Positions 15,898 to 36,679 of a stretch of DNA of 64,000 nucleotides are shown here, piece after piece (positions within the stretch are counted from its first letter, which is position 1; the number at the start of each line of letters is the position of its first letter). The DNA lies in contig NZ_CP142850.1 in the NCBI RefSeq assembly GCF_036287235.1, forward strand, positions 1,753,127-1,817,126. Direction: 5' to 3'. The notes beneath the pieces were generated by a model. The model saw only the letters and a program-made list of their open reading frames with translations, had not been told where the DNA came from and ran no database searches. The position numbers and the translations under genes are program-made. This stretch comes from Exiguobacterium sp. 9-2 (GTDB lineage Bacteria > Bacillota > Bacilli > Exiguobacteriales > Exiguobacteriaceae).

Positions 15898-16695
15898 TCA
15901 CGAACACTTATAAGACCGAATTGATCCATGAAGATCACAGATAACCGTCATGCATTCATTCCCATCGTTAAAACAAATCTGATGTGATCGTCCATTCTTG
16001 GATGTCGTGATGTCATCAATCCACAGTTGCGAAGCATCTGCTGAAGACAGCATCGCGATTTTGTCGCGAATCATGAATAAATCAAACGGTAACAGATTCA
16101 AGGATTGAATCGTCAAACCATGTTTACGGAAGAGTGGATCAAGCTGATATTGCGAGAGACTGTACAAACACTTCTCGGCTCCACCAATCAACAACTGAAT
16201 CGAATGGGAGGGTTCATGACTATCGATTCGCTCCTTATGCAGGATAATTCGTCCTCGAACACCAGACTCATTGAAAATTCGTTGCGTATCCTCTTGTGAA
16301 AGGCGTGGTCCACCTTCCTTAACCTTTAAGACGATGTGAGCGAATTCCGCGAAATCCGGTTTTCCGATTTCAAGCGCTGGGATATGACGAACTTCTTCAC
16401 GTTCAATGATTTCAATCAAGTCACGCTCGACTTGGATGCTGACCGTATCTGTTGAAAAGACACGGACGTCGATCACGAATTGATCAAGTACCGCATTTAC
16501 TTCGATCGTATACGTTAAATCTAGGTTTTTTTCTTGCTCAACCAACAATCGATTCAAGATAAGTTGATGCAATAAATGGACTGGTGTACGTGAAGAAAAC
16601 TGACTCGAATAAATCAAATGCTTCGGTCCGGTTCCTTTTGTTGCTTTTGGTCGTGCTCCGTTTAATCTATATACATTCACTTTATAATTTAACAT
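15898..16695 (-). CDS. Protein of unknown function
   Basis: I do not recognise this 265-residue protein. It is soluble, without signal peptide or membrane segment, and mixed alpha/beta. It starts MLNYKVNVYRLNGARPK at ATG 16695 with AGAGAAGGTGA upstream. The same frame stays open for another 201 bases upstream (to 16896) and encodes a plausible but AT-rich peptide; there is no ribosome site for the possible starts in that extension, so I keep the short form. It lies just downstream of the mtlD terminator on the same strand and has no obvious functional partner. Confidence 0.6.
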   Translation of the reverse strand: MLNYKVNVYRLNGARPKATKGTGPKHLIYSSQFSSRTPVHLLHQLILNRLLVEQEKNLDLTYTIEVNAVLDQFVIDVRVFSTDTVSIQVERDLIEIIEREEVRHIPALEIGKPDFAEFAHIVLKVKEGGPRLSQEDTQRIFNESGVRGRIILHKERIDSHEPSHSIQLLIGGAEKCLYSLSQYQLDPLFRKHGLTIQSLNLLPFDLFMIRDKIAMLSSADASQLWIDDITTSKNGRSHQICFNDGNECMTVICDLHGSIRSYKCS

Positions 16696-16888
16696 ATGAT
16701 CACCTTCTCTTACCTGAAAAATCGGAATAGAGATGTTCCGTTCATATAGCGTACAATGTATTTTAATCGCTAAATATTCGTTTTCGAATATTCCAAATTT
16801 AATATACAAATTGTAATCAAATTGTGATAGTAAGATTTTTAGAAACTGCTTTTTTCGTTGATACCAAGACATATTTAAATCGCAAACT

Positions 16889-32463: not shown

Positions 32464-33093
32464 ATGTCTCATTTACTATTCATCGAAGCAAACGATAGCA
32501 CGCATCAAAAAAAAGGCATTAGTTCTGAATTAAACGATGCCTTTCTGAATGCTTATCGTGAAAATCATCCTGAGGACAAAATTACGGTTTTGAATTTATT
32601 CGAGGAACGTCTTCCCTTCTTTGATCTAAAACTTGCGAACGCGGCAGGGCGGCTATTTAAAGGGGAAGAATTAACTGGAGATGATGCGACTCATGCACAA
32701 CGGCTTCAAGAATATTTAAACGGATTCTTAGATGCCGATAAAGTTGTCTTTTCATTTCCGATGTGGAACTTAACGGTTCCGGCACCGCTTCACAATTACA
32801 TGGATTATCTCGCCCAGGCTGGTCAAACGTTTCGTTATACAGCCGAAGGTTCGATCGGACTTGTTGAAGACAAACAAGTGCTGTTGATTCATTCACGCGG
32901 TGGTGATTACTCGACAAAAGAGAAAGCCCCAAGTGAACACGCGGTTCGCTATATGTTAGACTTGTTAGCATTCTTTGGGATCAATGATGTATCAACTGTC
33001 ATTTTAGAAGGACATCAGCAATACCCAGATCGTGCATCTGAATTGATCGAACAAGCGCTTCAAGAGTGCCGACAATTCGGTCGTTCGTTTTAA
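32464..33093 (+). CDS. azoR: FMN-dependent NADH-azoreductase
   Basis: A 209-residue flavodoxin-like quinone/azo reductase of the AzoR (AcpD) family, which reduces quinones and azo dyes with NADH. The FMN region FSFPMWNLTVPAPLHNYMDY around residues 97-117 and the loop HSRGGDYS near residue 143 are typical. Strong AGAAAGGAGCG ribosome site. It is divergent from the EAL gene. Its stop overlaps by three bases the stop of the remnant regulator on the other strand; its terminator lies 200 bases further. Confidence 0.92.
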   Translation: MSHLLFIEANDSTHQKKGISSELNDAFLNAYRENHPEDKITVLNLFEERLPFFDLKLANAAGRLFKGEELTGDDATHAQRLQEYLNGFLDADKVVFSFPMWNLTVPAPLHNYMDYLAQAGQTFRYTAEGSIGLVEDKQVLLIHSRGGDYSTKEKAPSEHAVRYMLDLLAFFGINDVSTVILEGHQQYPDRASELIEQALQECRQFGRSF

Positions 33094-33353
33094 ATTGGGA
33101 ATAGAACATACTCTGCATATTCTTCCAGAAGACGTTTTTCATGAATCGGCATATCAAATGCACAAAATAAGGAATAGGCCATCGTAAAATCACGCTGGAT
33201 ATCTGAGAGATCACCATTTAATTGCTGCTTAAAGTATCCCCTTTGAAAGTAAAAGTGACCTAAGAAATGACCGTCTTCCAACTGAAGACTCTCCTGAATA
33301 CCTTGTTCGGTGATTTTTAGACCGGCAAGGTATTTTTTTTGCAGTGAAAGTTG
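33090..33353 (-). pseudogene. C-terminal remnant of a fourth PlcR-like regulator
   Basis: The frame from 33353 down to the stop at 33090 (87 codons, no credible start) matches the C-terminal quarter of the neighbouring regulators: GHFLGHFYFQRGYFKQQL against TFLLGHFYFQLGNYQESV and TYLGHFYYQKGFFLESL, then DFTMAYSLFCAFD against TLAYTLLHAFE, ending YVLFPI against LLLFPI. The N-terminal DNA-binding domain and most TPR repeats are missing; an in-frame stop lies at 33354-33356. It abuts the last full regulator and its 3' end overlaps the azoR stop. I read it as a deletion remnant. Confidence 0.8.
33297..33340 (+). terminator. Terminator of azoR inside the remnant gene
   Basis: Hairpin ATACCTTG..CGGT / ACCG..CAAGGTAT followed by T8 on the plus strand. 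It lies inside the opposite-strand remnant frame, 204 bases past the azoR stop. Confidence 0.8.
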
Positions 33354-33363
33354 TTATAAAAAA

Positions 33364-34239
33364 TTAAAACTCAAATAATATATATTGCTCCTTCATACGT
33401 AGAATCATCTGTTTTCGAACGTCGTGCTCAAACGCGTGAAACAATGTATAGGCGACGGAATACTGTTTTTGAAGTGACATCTCATCTTCACCTGACTGTT
33501 CGTGATAGTGCGCGAGCTGATAATAAAAATGTCCAAATAAAAATGTATGATTATGCAGCAAACATAGTTCATATCCTTTCTTAGCGATGGCGATACTGTC
33601 CTCAGACTTCCCTTGGTATTCAAGAATCTGACAATGATTAAAATAAATTTTTAATAGCGCATTCAGATGATTATTCGACTGAAGGATTTCAATTTCATTT
33701 TCCAATTCCTGATATACGGATTCCGTTAAATGAAATAGATCCTTTTCTGAATACATATTTGCAATCGCCATTTTGATTCGAATGAACAATTGAATGGAAT
33801 GCGACCACACTTCTTTTTCATTCAACAAGTTGCTGAGTAGGCTCGCAGCTGTCCGAAAATCAATCCGATTTTGTTTTAAATCAATGATCGTCTTGATGTA
33901 AATTTTTAAAATATCTACTTCGACGATTGCATCCACTTCCTGCTGGTTGATTCGTTCCATTGCCTCTTGGTACTTTTCCTCTCGAAGCAAGTCGGATAAG
34001 AATCGATCCAGCTGAAAGAACTTTTCTTCATCTGTATGTTCTTGAAATAACAACGAGATGGGAACTTGCAACCTTACAGCCAGTTGTTGTATTAACTCAA
34101 CAGTCGGAGAATTTAAGCCATTTTCAATTTTACTAATTTCAGCCTGACTGCATAAATTAGCGCACAGTTCATTTTGAGAATACCCCTTTTGAACACGAAA
34201 TCGTTTTAAGTTTTCTCCAATTGGATTAGCTTTAACCAT
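33364..34239 (-). CDS. PlcR-like HTH-TPR regulator, paralogue 3
   Basis: A 291-residue regulator with an N-terminal XRE helix-turn-helix (residues about 8-62, QNELCANLCSQAEISKIENG) and a C-terminal stack of TPR-like helices. From memory of the family, the run IKMAIANMYSEKDLFHL ... IYFNHCQILEYQGK ... FGHFYYQLAHY is collinear with PlcR of Bacillus cereus, a quorum-sensing regulator of the RRNPP group that binds a short peptide. It is complete and ends EQYILFEF. It has its own TTGGAGG ribosome site after a 112-base gap, so it may have a separate start of transcription. AT-rich. Targets and ligand unknown. Confidence 0.85.
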   Translation of the reverse strand: MVKANPIGENLKRFRVQKGYSQNELCANLCSQAEISKIENGLNSPTVELIQQLAVRLQVPISLLFQEHTDEEKFFQLDRFLSDLLREEKYQEAMERINQQEVDAIVEVDILKIYIKTIIDLKQNRIDFRTAASLLSNLLNEKEVWSHSIQLFIRIKMAIANMYSEKDLFHLTESVYQELENEIEILQSNNHLNALLKIYFNHCQILEYQGKSEDSIAIAKKGYELCLLHNHTFLFGHFYYQLAHYHEQSGEDEMSLQKQYSVAYTLFHAFEHDVRKQMILRMKEQYILFEF

Positions 34240-34351
34240 CTTATCAAATCCTCCAAATACTTTAAAACGTCACATCGTATCTTAAATCATGATTCGTGTT
34301 TAGCGGTAGATTCGAAAGTAAACAATAAATATTCTTTCTTCAAGTCAACGA

Positions 34352-35191
34352 CTATTGTTTCGTCGTTTGAAATTCAAATGCGTGAAGCAATGTATAGGCT
34401 AATGTATATGTTTTTTGAAATAAGCCGTTGTTGACGGATTCTTGATAATTACCTAATTGAAAATAAAAATGACCTAAAAGAAAGGTTTGTTGTGAATCTA
34501 AGCATAAATTAATCCCTTTTTGAATAAACACGTTCGCTTCTTCAAACATGTCTTGATATAAAAGAATTTGAGCATGATTAAAATAAATTTTTATCAATGA
34601 AGTGACATATAATGAACTTCCGATTTTTTCTAAAGACGCTTCAATGTCGAGATATGCACTTGTAGTTAAATGATACAACTCATGTTCAGCATATAGATTG
34701 GCAATTGCTGTTTTAATCCGAACAAATAAAGAAATAGATTCATTCCAAACATCATATTCGCGTATTAGATTACTTAATAAGGAAGTCGCCGTTCTAAAAT
34801 CATATTGATCTTGTTTCAGATCCACGATGATTTGAAAGTAAGTACTTAATATGATTAAATTCATATTCTCGTTATAATCATAGTTTGAAATGAATTGTAT
34901 GATTTGATCAAAATTCTCTTCTCGAAGTTGATCCGAAACAAATTTATCAAAAAACTCTATCTCTTCATTAGCTTGAGGATCCTCAAATAAAAGTGCAATT
35001 GGACTATTTAAACGAGAGGCAATTTTTTGTAATAATTCTACGGTTGGTGAATTTAAGCCATTCTCGATTTTACTGATTTCAGCTTGGCTACAAATATCTT
35101 CACATAATTCATTTTGAGTCATACGCTTTTCAATACGCAATTGTTTAATCTTTTTACCAATTGACGAAGTTAAATTTTCCAAATTCATCAT
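34352..35191 (-). CDS. PlcR-like HTH-TPR regulator, paralogue 2
   Basis: A 279-residue close paralogue of the next gene: QNELCEDICSQAEISKIENG is shared almost whole, as are NSPTVELLQKIA, DFRTATSLLSNLI and IYFNHAQILLYQ. It has the same XRE domain and TPR stack. The ATG overlaps the stop of the upstream regulator (ATGA), so the pair is coupled. Its C-terminus stops at HAFEFQTTKQ, about 14 residues short of its paralogues; the bases after the stop still encode a similar tail broken by two stops. This may be a recent truncation. Role unknown. Confidence 0.83.
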   Translation of the reverse strand: MMNLENLTSSIGKKIKQLRIEKRMTQNELCEDICSQAEISKIENGLNSPTVELLQKIASRLNSPIALLFEDPQANEEIEFFDKFVSDQLREENFDQIIQFISNYDYNENMNLIILSTYFQIIVDLKQDQYDFRTATSLLSNLIREYDVWNESISLFVRIKTAIANLYAEHELYHLTTSAYLDIEASLEKIGSSLYVTSLIKIYFNHAQILLYQDMFEEANVFIQKGINLCLDSQQTFLLGHFYFQLGNYQESVNNGLFQKTYTLAYTLLHAFEFQTTKQ

Positions 35192-36090
35192 TTCCCTTCA
35201 CTTCTGTCGATAGGGAATAGTAATAAATCTGATAAATGTGTTTCAAGAATTTTTCGGTATGCGTGATTGTTTGTCGCAGTAAAAAATGAGTAAGCAATCG
35301 TGTAAGCTTCTTTAACACTTTTCTCAGGAGCGTTTAATGATTCTAAAAAAAAGCCCTTTTGATAATAGAAATGACCAAGGTATGTCAAATCTTCTATTTC
35401 TTTAGTTTCTTCTATGACTCGTTCTACTTCTTGTAACCCTTCCTCGAATCGCTTTAATCTGTATAAGTTACGTAAATAGTTGTATATGATTTTCATTCTA
35501 ATTTTTTTATATTCTCGTGTCTGATAATGTAGTTTTAGTAATTCTACGTAGATTTGATGGGAATGCAGGTAATCTTCATGATTCGTATACAATACAGCGA
35601 TTGCCATTTGAATTCGAGTATAGAGAAGAAATGATTTTTCTTCTAACTTTTCTTCGCTGACTAATTTCAATAAAGCAGAAATGCATGTTCTAAAATCGAT
35701 GTTTCCTTTTTCATATAATAGTAATTTTCGATGATAACGAATTAACACTTGAATTTCAAACGCTGTATTTGATTTCGCATATTCTTCTAAATCTTTGTCC
35801 ATAGATGAGTAATTTTTCTCCCTCATATGGCGTAACATTTTTTGATCAATCTCATTTAATTTTTGTGACACGATTTCATCTTCAAAAAACAATGAAATCG
35901 GAATGCGCAGTCTTCGACAAATTTGCTGTAGTAAATCAATCGTCGGAGAATTTCGACCATTTTCGATTTTGCTGATCTCAGCCTGACTACAAATTCCTTC
36001 ACAAAGTGCTTTCTGTGTCATTCCTTGTTTTTTTCGTTCTTGCTTGATCTTATCGCCAACAGAATGAATGACTGGATGCATGAAGTTCAC
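35188..36090 (-). CDS. PlcR-like HTH-TPR regulator, paralogue 1
   Basis: A 300-residue member of the same family, more distant from the other two. HTH residues QKALCEGICSQAEISKIENG near positions 26-45 are followed by TPR-like helices and the C-terminal block YLGHFYYQKGFFLESL. It ends LLLFPIDRSEGK. The ATG lies 27 bases downstream of the tRNA-Thr terminator on the same strand, with GAGGAGTGAAC as ribosome site, leaving no room for a separate promoter other than inside the terminator; readthrough from the tRNA promoter is possible. Role unknown. Confidence 0.85.
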   Translation of the reverse strand: MNFMHPVIHSVGDKIKQERKKQGMTQKALCEGICSQAEISKIENGRNSPTIDLLQQICRRLRIPISLFFEDEIVSQKLNEIDQKMLRHMREKNYSSMDKDLEEYAKSNTAFEIQVLIRYHRKLLLYEKGNIDFRTCISALLKLVSEEKLEEKSFLLYTRIQMAIAVLYTNHEDYLHSHQIYVELLKLHYQTREYKKIRMKIIYNYLRNLYRLKRFEEGLQEVERVIEETKEIEDLTYLGHFYYQKGFFLESLNAPEKSVKEAYTIAYSFFTATNNHAYRKILETHLSDLLLFPIDRSEGK

Positions 36091-36116: not shown

Positions 36117-36163
36117 AAAAAAAGTCTTTCGTTTCAAGTATATATCACTTGAGACGAAAGACG
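36117..36163 (-). terminator. Terminator of tRNA-Thr
   Basis: A long stem GTCTTTCGTCTCAAGTGA / CACTTGAAACGAAAGAC type hairpin (one mismatch, arms of about 16 bases) followed by U6 on the minus strand, a few bases past the tRNA. Confidence 0.92.
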
Positions 36164-36169
36164 CGTGTA

Positions 36170-36240
36170 TGCTTCCGGCGAGAATCGAACTCGCACTGCA
36201 GCATTACCATTGCTGAGGTCTGCCATTAACCTACGGAAGC
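36170..36240 (-). tRNA. tRNA-Thr (anticodon GGT)
   Basis: A 71-base tRNA. Acceptor GCTTCCG pairs with CGGAAGC, D stem GGTT/GACC, anticodon stem CAGCA/TGCTG with loop ATGGTAA giving anticodon GGT, T arm GCGAG-TTCGATT-CTCGC and discriminator A. G1-C72 and C2-G71 fit threonyl-tRNA synthetase identity. The D loop is short and the CCA end is not encoded. Confidence 0.92.
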
Positions 36241-36325: not shown

Positions 36326-36523
36326 TTACAGTGTCGTTTTTGTTAATGAATTATCATAGACGACTAAAACCGAATAATGTTCATCCGCTTTAGACGCGAC
36401 GAATGTTGAAAACTTCAACGTAATGATGGCGTTTGACCCAACACCATTGTTCTCAAAAAATTCGTTCAATCTTTCTTCTAATTCTTCAGGCGTTCGCCCG
36501 ACAACTACTTTAGAATGTAACAT
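36326..36523 (-). CDS. Cse60-like small protein
   Basis: A 65-residue protein starting MLHSKVVVGRTPEELEERLN and containing the strand ITLKFSTFV and the C-terminal HYSVLVVYD, a layout like the sporulation-associated small protein Cse60 (DUF2758) of Bacillus. The fourth ATG of the open frame is chosen because GGAG lies 8 bases before it. Function of the family is not established. Assignment is by pattern and length. Confidence 0.62.
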   Translation of the reverse strand: MLHSKVVVGRTPEELEERLNEFFENNGVGSNAIITLKFSTFVASKADEHYSVLVVYDNSLTKTTL

Positions 36524-36679
36524 GATCATCACTCCGTTCTGTTATGGTAGGTTCGAGTTAAATAATTGCCTGATCGAATAAATGTTAAACCTTTTATTTT
36601 CCGACTTGCTCCTTCCTCTCTTTATCCGCTATGGTGAAATGGAGCAGTTTAACCTAAAAAGAATAGGAAGTGAAGTCTG

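Follow-up and report, generated by a model that had tools for sequence, protein, structure and literature searches.

The receptor array and its boundaries

The window analyzed here, a 64,000-nucleotide (nt) stretch of the genome of Exiguobacterium sp. 9-2 (contig NZ_CP142850.1, positions 1,753,127 to 1,817,126), carries a tandem array of PlcR-type receptor genes on its minus strand. Three complete genes, each encoding a helix-turn-helix (HTH) segment and tetratricopeptide repeats (TPR), and a 3'-terminal piece of a fourth follow one another head-to-tail over 33090-36081, and the open reading frame (ORF) calls agree with the original prediction, an earlier reading of this DNA, which had described this arrangement. 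The first receptor gene, R1 (35188-36081, minus strand), encodes a PlcR-type protein with an HTH and five TPRs; its 297-amino acid (aa) form, from an ATG with a good Shine-Dalgarno sequence, is more likely than the 300-aa form from a GTG (35188-36090). R2 (34352-35191, minus strand, 279 aa) overlaps R1 by 4 nt and has lost part of its C-terminus to a single-base deletion close to the 3' end of the gene, as a 3'-end comparison with its five full-length orthologues reveals. R3 (33364-34239, minus strand) encodes 291 aa and is followed by the 3' remnant of the last array copy (33090-33353, minus strand), of which 33090-33281 is called as an ORF and the frame is open to about 33353. The block GHFYxQ is present in R1, R2, R3, and the remnant, as had been noticed earlier, and the near-identity then ascribed to the HTH segments holds for a short block, CSQAEISKIENG, common to R1, R2, and R3, and not for the rest of the HTH, which is merely similar.

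The array sits just behind the terminator of a tRNA-Thr (GGT) gene directly upstream of R1 (36170-36240, minus strand; found with ARAGORN and Rfam), the neighbor that the original prediction had named. The terminator-like hairpin with its T-run, between the tRNA gene and R1 (36117-36162, minus strand), was read from the sequence and from 19 counterparts, and is not in the list of a computed scan that also looked for promoter-like matches. The promoter scan gave no promoter-like match on the minus strand between tRNA-Thr and R1, which suggests read-through from the tRNA; the array would be expressed either in this way or from an unrecognised weak promoter. At the far boundary, tail to tail with the array, lies an azoreductase-like gene of the flavodoxin fold (32464-33093, plus strand; Flavodoxin_2, 1.7e-43). 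The interval from tRNA to azoreductase holds receptor genes only, and the array is richer in A/T than its neighbors, as claimed (GC content 0.331, flanks 0.425).

The array proteins are PlcR-type receptors of the RRNPP family, the family to which the original prediction had assigned them. R1, R2, and R3 match HTH_3 above the Pfam cut-off with their N-terminal XRE-type HTH, and match RNPP_C above the cut-off as well (4.1e-25 for R1 in its 300-aa form, 3.9e-08 for R2, and 2.4e-13 for R3); the remnant scores 23.5 bits against RNPP_C, just under the cut-off of 26.5. No NCBIfam model reached its cut-off for any of the four. A sequence search of PDB with R1 and R2 found PlcR (E 1.1e-30 and 9.2e-18), and with an AlphaFold model of R1 (pLDDT 88.9, pTM 0.73) the best Foldseek match was 3u3w, the PlcR-PapR7-DNA complex (E 3.7e-12, TM score 0.60 on the query, root mean square deviation 8.1), with Rgg, ComR, and PrgX behind PlcR. 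Together, the domain matches and the matches to PlcR in sequence and structure make the fold family secure.

Conserved place and variable content across the genus

We compared the array across 19 Exiguobacterium genomes, this one (G000) included, and in 19 genomes of the sister genus, counting as intact any copy of 265 aa or more with a start. The tRNA-Thr (GGT) gene lies directly upstream of the array in 19/19 genus genomes, the azoreductase gene ends it in 18 (in G015 the contig ends first), and GC content is lower in the array than in its flanks in all 19 (mean 0.346 versus 0.437). None of the 19 has an empty site at tRNA-Thr. Content is far less uniform: the 63 intact copies range from one per genome (G006) to six (G001), two intact copies occur in five or six genomes depending on the uncertain start of a copy in G008, and broken copies occur in G000, G002, G003, and G008. 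Since place and low GC are common to all 19 genomes and no empty site was seen among them, the array is an old, fixed feature of Exiguobacterium with changing content rather than a strain-specific island. The original prediction had held that an array with the same copy number and composition in all relatives would speak against it; place and composition are indeed constant, and copy number is not.

Among the 19 sister-genus genomes, no full-length relative was found: 15 had a single match that covered no more than about the first 125 residues, and four had no match at all. The sister genus is unusable as an empty-site control, as the gene neighboring tRNA-Thr was found in 0/19 of its genomes. 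This neighbor, upstream of tRNA-Thr at 36326-36532 on the minus strand, encodes a 68-aa protein with no Pfam match and is present in 19/19 genus genomes.

Recombination among array copies

The array copies sort into old orthologous groups common to several species, so repeated duplication of one gene, which the original prediction had proposed, is not supported if the duplication is meant to be fresh. The nature of the differences is clearest between this genome and G011, which is labelled as the same species: the flanks are 97.6-100% identical in 250-nt windows and the array differs. In R1, identity falls to 73% after the HTH; codon for codon, the two R1 proteins agree at 68/68 residues of the HTH and at 157/227 of the TPR part, and the switch towards a G001-like allele is located just after the HTH. 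G011 has five copies. Its copy 2 (L047:8758-9648, minus strand) is a chimera, R2-type over the first ~180 alignment columns and R3-type in the TPR after them, and the remnant in the window matches the 3' end of its last copy (copy 5) and continues into that copy's sequence. G011 and G016, which are placed in different species, are mostly 97-100% identical over the array and several kb beside it (lowest window 92.8%), whereas the windows around this shared stretch are only 77-96% identical.

The HTH is better conserved than the TPR part in five groups: R1, R2, the group of last copies, a fifth array group, and a lone receptor encoded elsewhere in the genome (described below); R3-type copies show the reverse (HTH 0.81, TPR 0.88) because of the chimeras among them. 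Read from these alignments, the strains vary in their number of copies and in their receptor alleles, and the junctions show recombination that fuses and swaps copies. These junctions fall in or just after the HTH-coding segment and thus join a near-constant DNA-binding half to exchangeable peptide-sensing halves, so that the conserved HTH segment looks like a handle for exchanging sensor halves.

Array receptors and the lone receptor

Each genome also encodes a single-copy paralogue elsewhere, which we refer to as the lone receptor and which was extracted from 18 of the 19 genomes (in G007 the contig ends there). In a tree, the 63 array copies fall on one side of a branch and the 18 sequences of the lone receptor on the other. 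Its neighbor in 19/19 genomes is a convergently oriented gene that encodes a secreted propeptide containing repeats of a PapR-like motif; contig ends cut this gene in G007 and G012. In this genome the pair lies outside the window (G000:C1 about 2635413-2636733; L080:5914-7234), and the propeptide contains NDLPAEF eight times. The sequences read give these pherotypes: NDLPAEF in G000, G008, and G018; KGLPLEY in G011 and G016; ER[IL]PLEY in G007, G010, and G017; GNGLPLEY in G009, G012, and G013; [IL]PFEF in G003, G005, and G006; LPYEY in G002 and G015; LPPEY/H in G001 and G004; and NNLPTEF in G014. Branches of the lone-receptor tree track these pherotypes, cutting across close relatives. Between G000 and G011, the flanks of the lone locus are 93.6-100% identical and the stretch of TPR and propeptide is 50.5-61.6% identical, so the pherotype differs within a species.

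Neither the lone paralogue with its propeptide nor the want of recognisable propeptides at the array was part of the original prediction. A similarity search for PapR-like genes, run with a permissive threshold of E 10, yielded a single convincing propeptide gene in each genome. A heuristic scan for small ORFs resembling signal peptides, which is blind to leaderless peptides, found no convincing one at the arrays, where the many candidates were overlapping, in alternate frames, or unshared; neither search would pick up dissimilar or leaderless peptides. Two sets of candidates were judged to be chance: alternate-frame ORFs at 3' ends (35154-35318 in G000 and its counterpart in G003), and an ORF of 20-24 aa near the ends of G001_5, G002_5, G011_4, G016_4, and G017_4. 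The ORFs common to relatives overlie conserved receptor codons, hence this judgement. We tentatively regard the array copies as orphan receptors, that is, as lacking a recognised neighboring propeptide, within the broader interpretation weighed below.

Array and lone receptors have several positions in common. Asn201 (PlcR numbering) is kept in 81/81 receptors (63 array and 18 lone) and may contact the main chain of the peptide, by analogy with N205 of PlcRa, and the recognition block, positions 29-32 and 35, reads C, S, Q, A, and S in all 81. The residues of PlcR that contact the glutamate, given as Lys89, Gln237, and Tyr275 in excerpts of PMC6568020, fare differently. The lone receptor has Gln237 and Tyr275 in 18/18 cases; in the array, position 237 is His in 57/63 copies and Gln in 6/63. 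Within the window, R1 keeps Lys89 and Tyr275, and all three residues differ in R2 and R3, which have Glu in place of Lys89 and Thr or Arg in place of Tyr275. Another pocket position, 205, varies with the orthologous group: it is Asn in 16/16 R1-type copies, Ile in 12/12 R2 and R3 copies, and Gln in 20/20 copies of the two groups that lie closest to the azoreductase gene. Such differences fit the parallel sensing channels of the original prediction.

A candidate operator and a 265-aa gene

The promoter region of the propeptide gene, read in 15 genomes, contains ATATTCGTATTCGAATAT or a one-base variant of it, and within the window a candidate operator with the same core, TATTCGN4CGAATA, lies at 16774-16791 (no strand) as ATATTCGTTTTCGAATAT, upstream of a gene for a conserved 265-aa protein of no assigned function (15898-16695, minus strand). 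Genome-wide, 17 genomes contain TATTCGN4CGAATA twice and the other two contain it three times, and its reversed-pattern control has no match in 19/19; the places common to all 19 genomes are the propeptide gene and a position 79 nt upstream of the 265-aa gene, where three genomes have a second, overlapping palindrome. The 265-aa protein is strongly conserved (17 of 19 sequences compared). It had no Pfam, NCBIfam, or PHROG match, and its AlphaFold model (pLDDT 79.4) had no PDB fold match with E <= 0.001. Its gene is present in 19/19 genus genomes and 0/19 sister-genus genomes. The PlcR box itself, TATGNAN4TNCATA, was not favored as a target, standing near control level: with up to two mismatches it has 30 matches in the window (30.6 expected), and in bulk counts over the 19 genomes there are 52 exact matches versus 37 for the control.

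TATTCGN4CGAATA may instead belong to another regulator, in which case the array would be unconnected to the 265-aa gene, and we consider this quite possible, if somewhat doubtful. The palindrome was not found at the array or in its upstream region, its role as an operator is putative, and a similar but distinct palindrome, ATATTCACTATTGAATAT, stands before a purR gene. On the other side, in 19/19 genomes the palindrome falls within the promoter region of the gene for the PapR-like propeptide, the 265-aa gene is restricted to the genus in the same way, and the layout (TAT, three bases, N4, three bases, ATA) resembles that of the PlcR box.

A broader palindrome, ATATTCN6GAATAT, also occurs in the promoter regions of purR and of a 108-aa gene, with TATTCA/TGAATA arms, and these sites were set aside because they probably belong to other regulators. 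The first of them, immediately before the purR-like gene (L088 near 6257; G000:C1:54256), is ATATTCACTATTGAATAT, with close variants in relatives. The second is ATATTCATATTTGAATAT, before the gene for a 108-aa small membrane protein (L078:6308-6325; G000:C1:1555307), and the same site is present in 19/19 genomes.

Possible roles of the array

The interpretation that we favor, and that we hold to be about as open to doubt as to belief, is that the array is a genus-wide set of recombining orphan PlcR-type receptors that hear peptides made elsewhere and may share the operators of the lone receptor. The TPR halves would bind short imported peptides that are not encoded beside them, candidates being the lone system's PapR-like peptide and peptides from neighbors ("eavesdropping"). 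As array and lone receptors have identical recognition-helix blocks, the array receptors might act at the same or similar operators, with TATTCGN4CGAATA as the candidate, and there either help or compete with the lone receptor. Several points weigh against this interpretation. In the array, the pocket residues that hold the PapR glutamate have mostly been replaced, at position 237 in nearly all copies and at Lys89 and Tyr275 in R2 and R3, so array receptors may not bind PapR-like peptides at all; with one convincing propeptide gene per genome, several different ligands would each need another source. The alternate-frame ORFs near the 3' ends of some copies were judged to be chance and not disproved, and leaderless peptides are invisible to the scan. 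The candidate operator is absent from the array itself, and its link to binding by PlcR-like proteins is purely putative. Finally, R2 and several copies elsewhere are damaged, which fits decay too.

A bolder reading, credible and still rather unlikely in our estimate, is a shuffling repertoire of pheromone sensors, in which the HTH would serve as the recombination handle, sensor halves would be swapped between strains and species, and several foreign or kin signals would simultaneously steer one small regulon, the propeptide and 265-aa genes.

It is likewise unlikely, perhaps slightly more so, that each array receptor has a private peptide, encoded elsewhere or by an overlooked short ORF, which would give true parallel channels and no island. 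The group-specific residues at pocket position 205 (Asn in R1-type, Ile in R2 and R3, and Gln at the azoreductase end) are what this would lead one to expect; each genome, however, has one convincing PapR-like gene and no convincing linked one, though dissimilar or leaderless peptides would escape. Less probable again is that the array has no present role in signalling and is a partly decayed birth-and-death cluster on which selection is weak: four genomes hold broken copies and copy number runs from one to six, but every one of the 19 genomes retains at least one intact copy, and the Asn for the peptide backbone and the recognition block are invariant in 63/63 intact copies. An acquired island inserted at tRNA-Thr, for which the original prediction had argued and to which low GC and the adjacent tRNA gene would point, is highly improbable given the same place and low GC in 19/19 genomes, the lack of any empty site among them, and the presence of receptor genes only in the interval in this window; an old acquisition by the genus ancestor is conceivable.

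Relation to known systems

The closest known system is PlcR-PapR of the Bacillus cereus group, with which the Exiguobacterium receptors share the fold of HTH and five TPRs, RNPP_C, and Asn201; the lone receptor also keeps Gln237 and Tyr275, has a propeptide of the LPxEF/Y type next door, and, as described for PlcR-PapR in the same excerpts (PMC6568020), comes in several pherotypes per group. The differences are that the array copies have no recognised propeptide and mostly His237, that the lone propeptide is multi-repeat and convergent, and that the PlcR box is near control level in Exiguobacterium. PlcRa-PapRa, according to part of its description (PMC3519770), is likewise a PlcR paralogue with a longer PapR-like propeptide, but a single receptor with its own peptide and no orphan array. 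Secreted propeptides with several copies of the mature signal, like that of the lone system, are reported in sections of two papers, PlcR-type systems included (PMC11343458, PMC9765709). Sections of the latter also treat orphan RRNPPA receptors (RapB, RapD, RapJ, and chromosomal AimR) as "eavesdroppers" thought to answer the signals of other systems (PMC9765709). The array receptors resemble these in having no recognised neighboring propeptide gene, leaderless peptides being outside our scan; the eavesdroppers described there are Rap, AimR, and PrgX, whereas the array is PlcR-type, tandem, variable in number, and recombined. Eavesdropper RRNPPA receptors and repeated pheromones are therefore already known, and a tandem, recombining PlcR-type array in Exiguobacterium appears to be new: our searches of the open-licence PMC literature found no earlier report of such an array, one for Exiguobacterium together with RRNPP returned no paper, and the main texts of PMC9765709, PMC10075063, PMC11343458, and PMC12700828 do not mention Exiguobacterium.

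Eavesdropping by orphan RRNPP receptors has so far been suggested mostly for Rap and AimR, and the trimming, fusing, and swapping of array genes among related strains point to a variable repertoire of "ears" with which peptide signals of bacteria could be heard. The array would supply a natural, testable receptor series, with one DNA-binding half and different sensor halves. The comparisons also tie the window to a previously unlinked candidate regulon of two sites, one of which precedes the window's 265-aa gene, and to a pherotype-polymorphic PapR-like system.

One observation bears on both array and pherotype, and we offer it as a hint only. R1 alleles of class B (Gln237; G007, G010, G011, and G016) occur in LPLEY strains in 4/4 cases, and those of class A occur in one LPLEY strain and four others (two-sided Fisher 0.048, from related genomes and a post hoc grouping), so R1 allele class may be weakly associated with pherotype.

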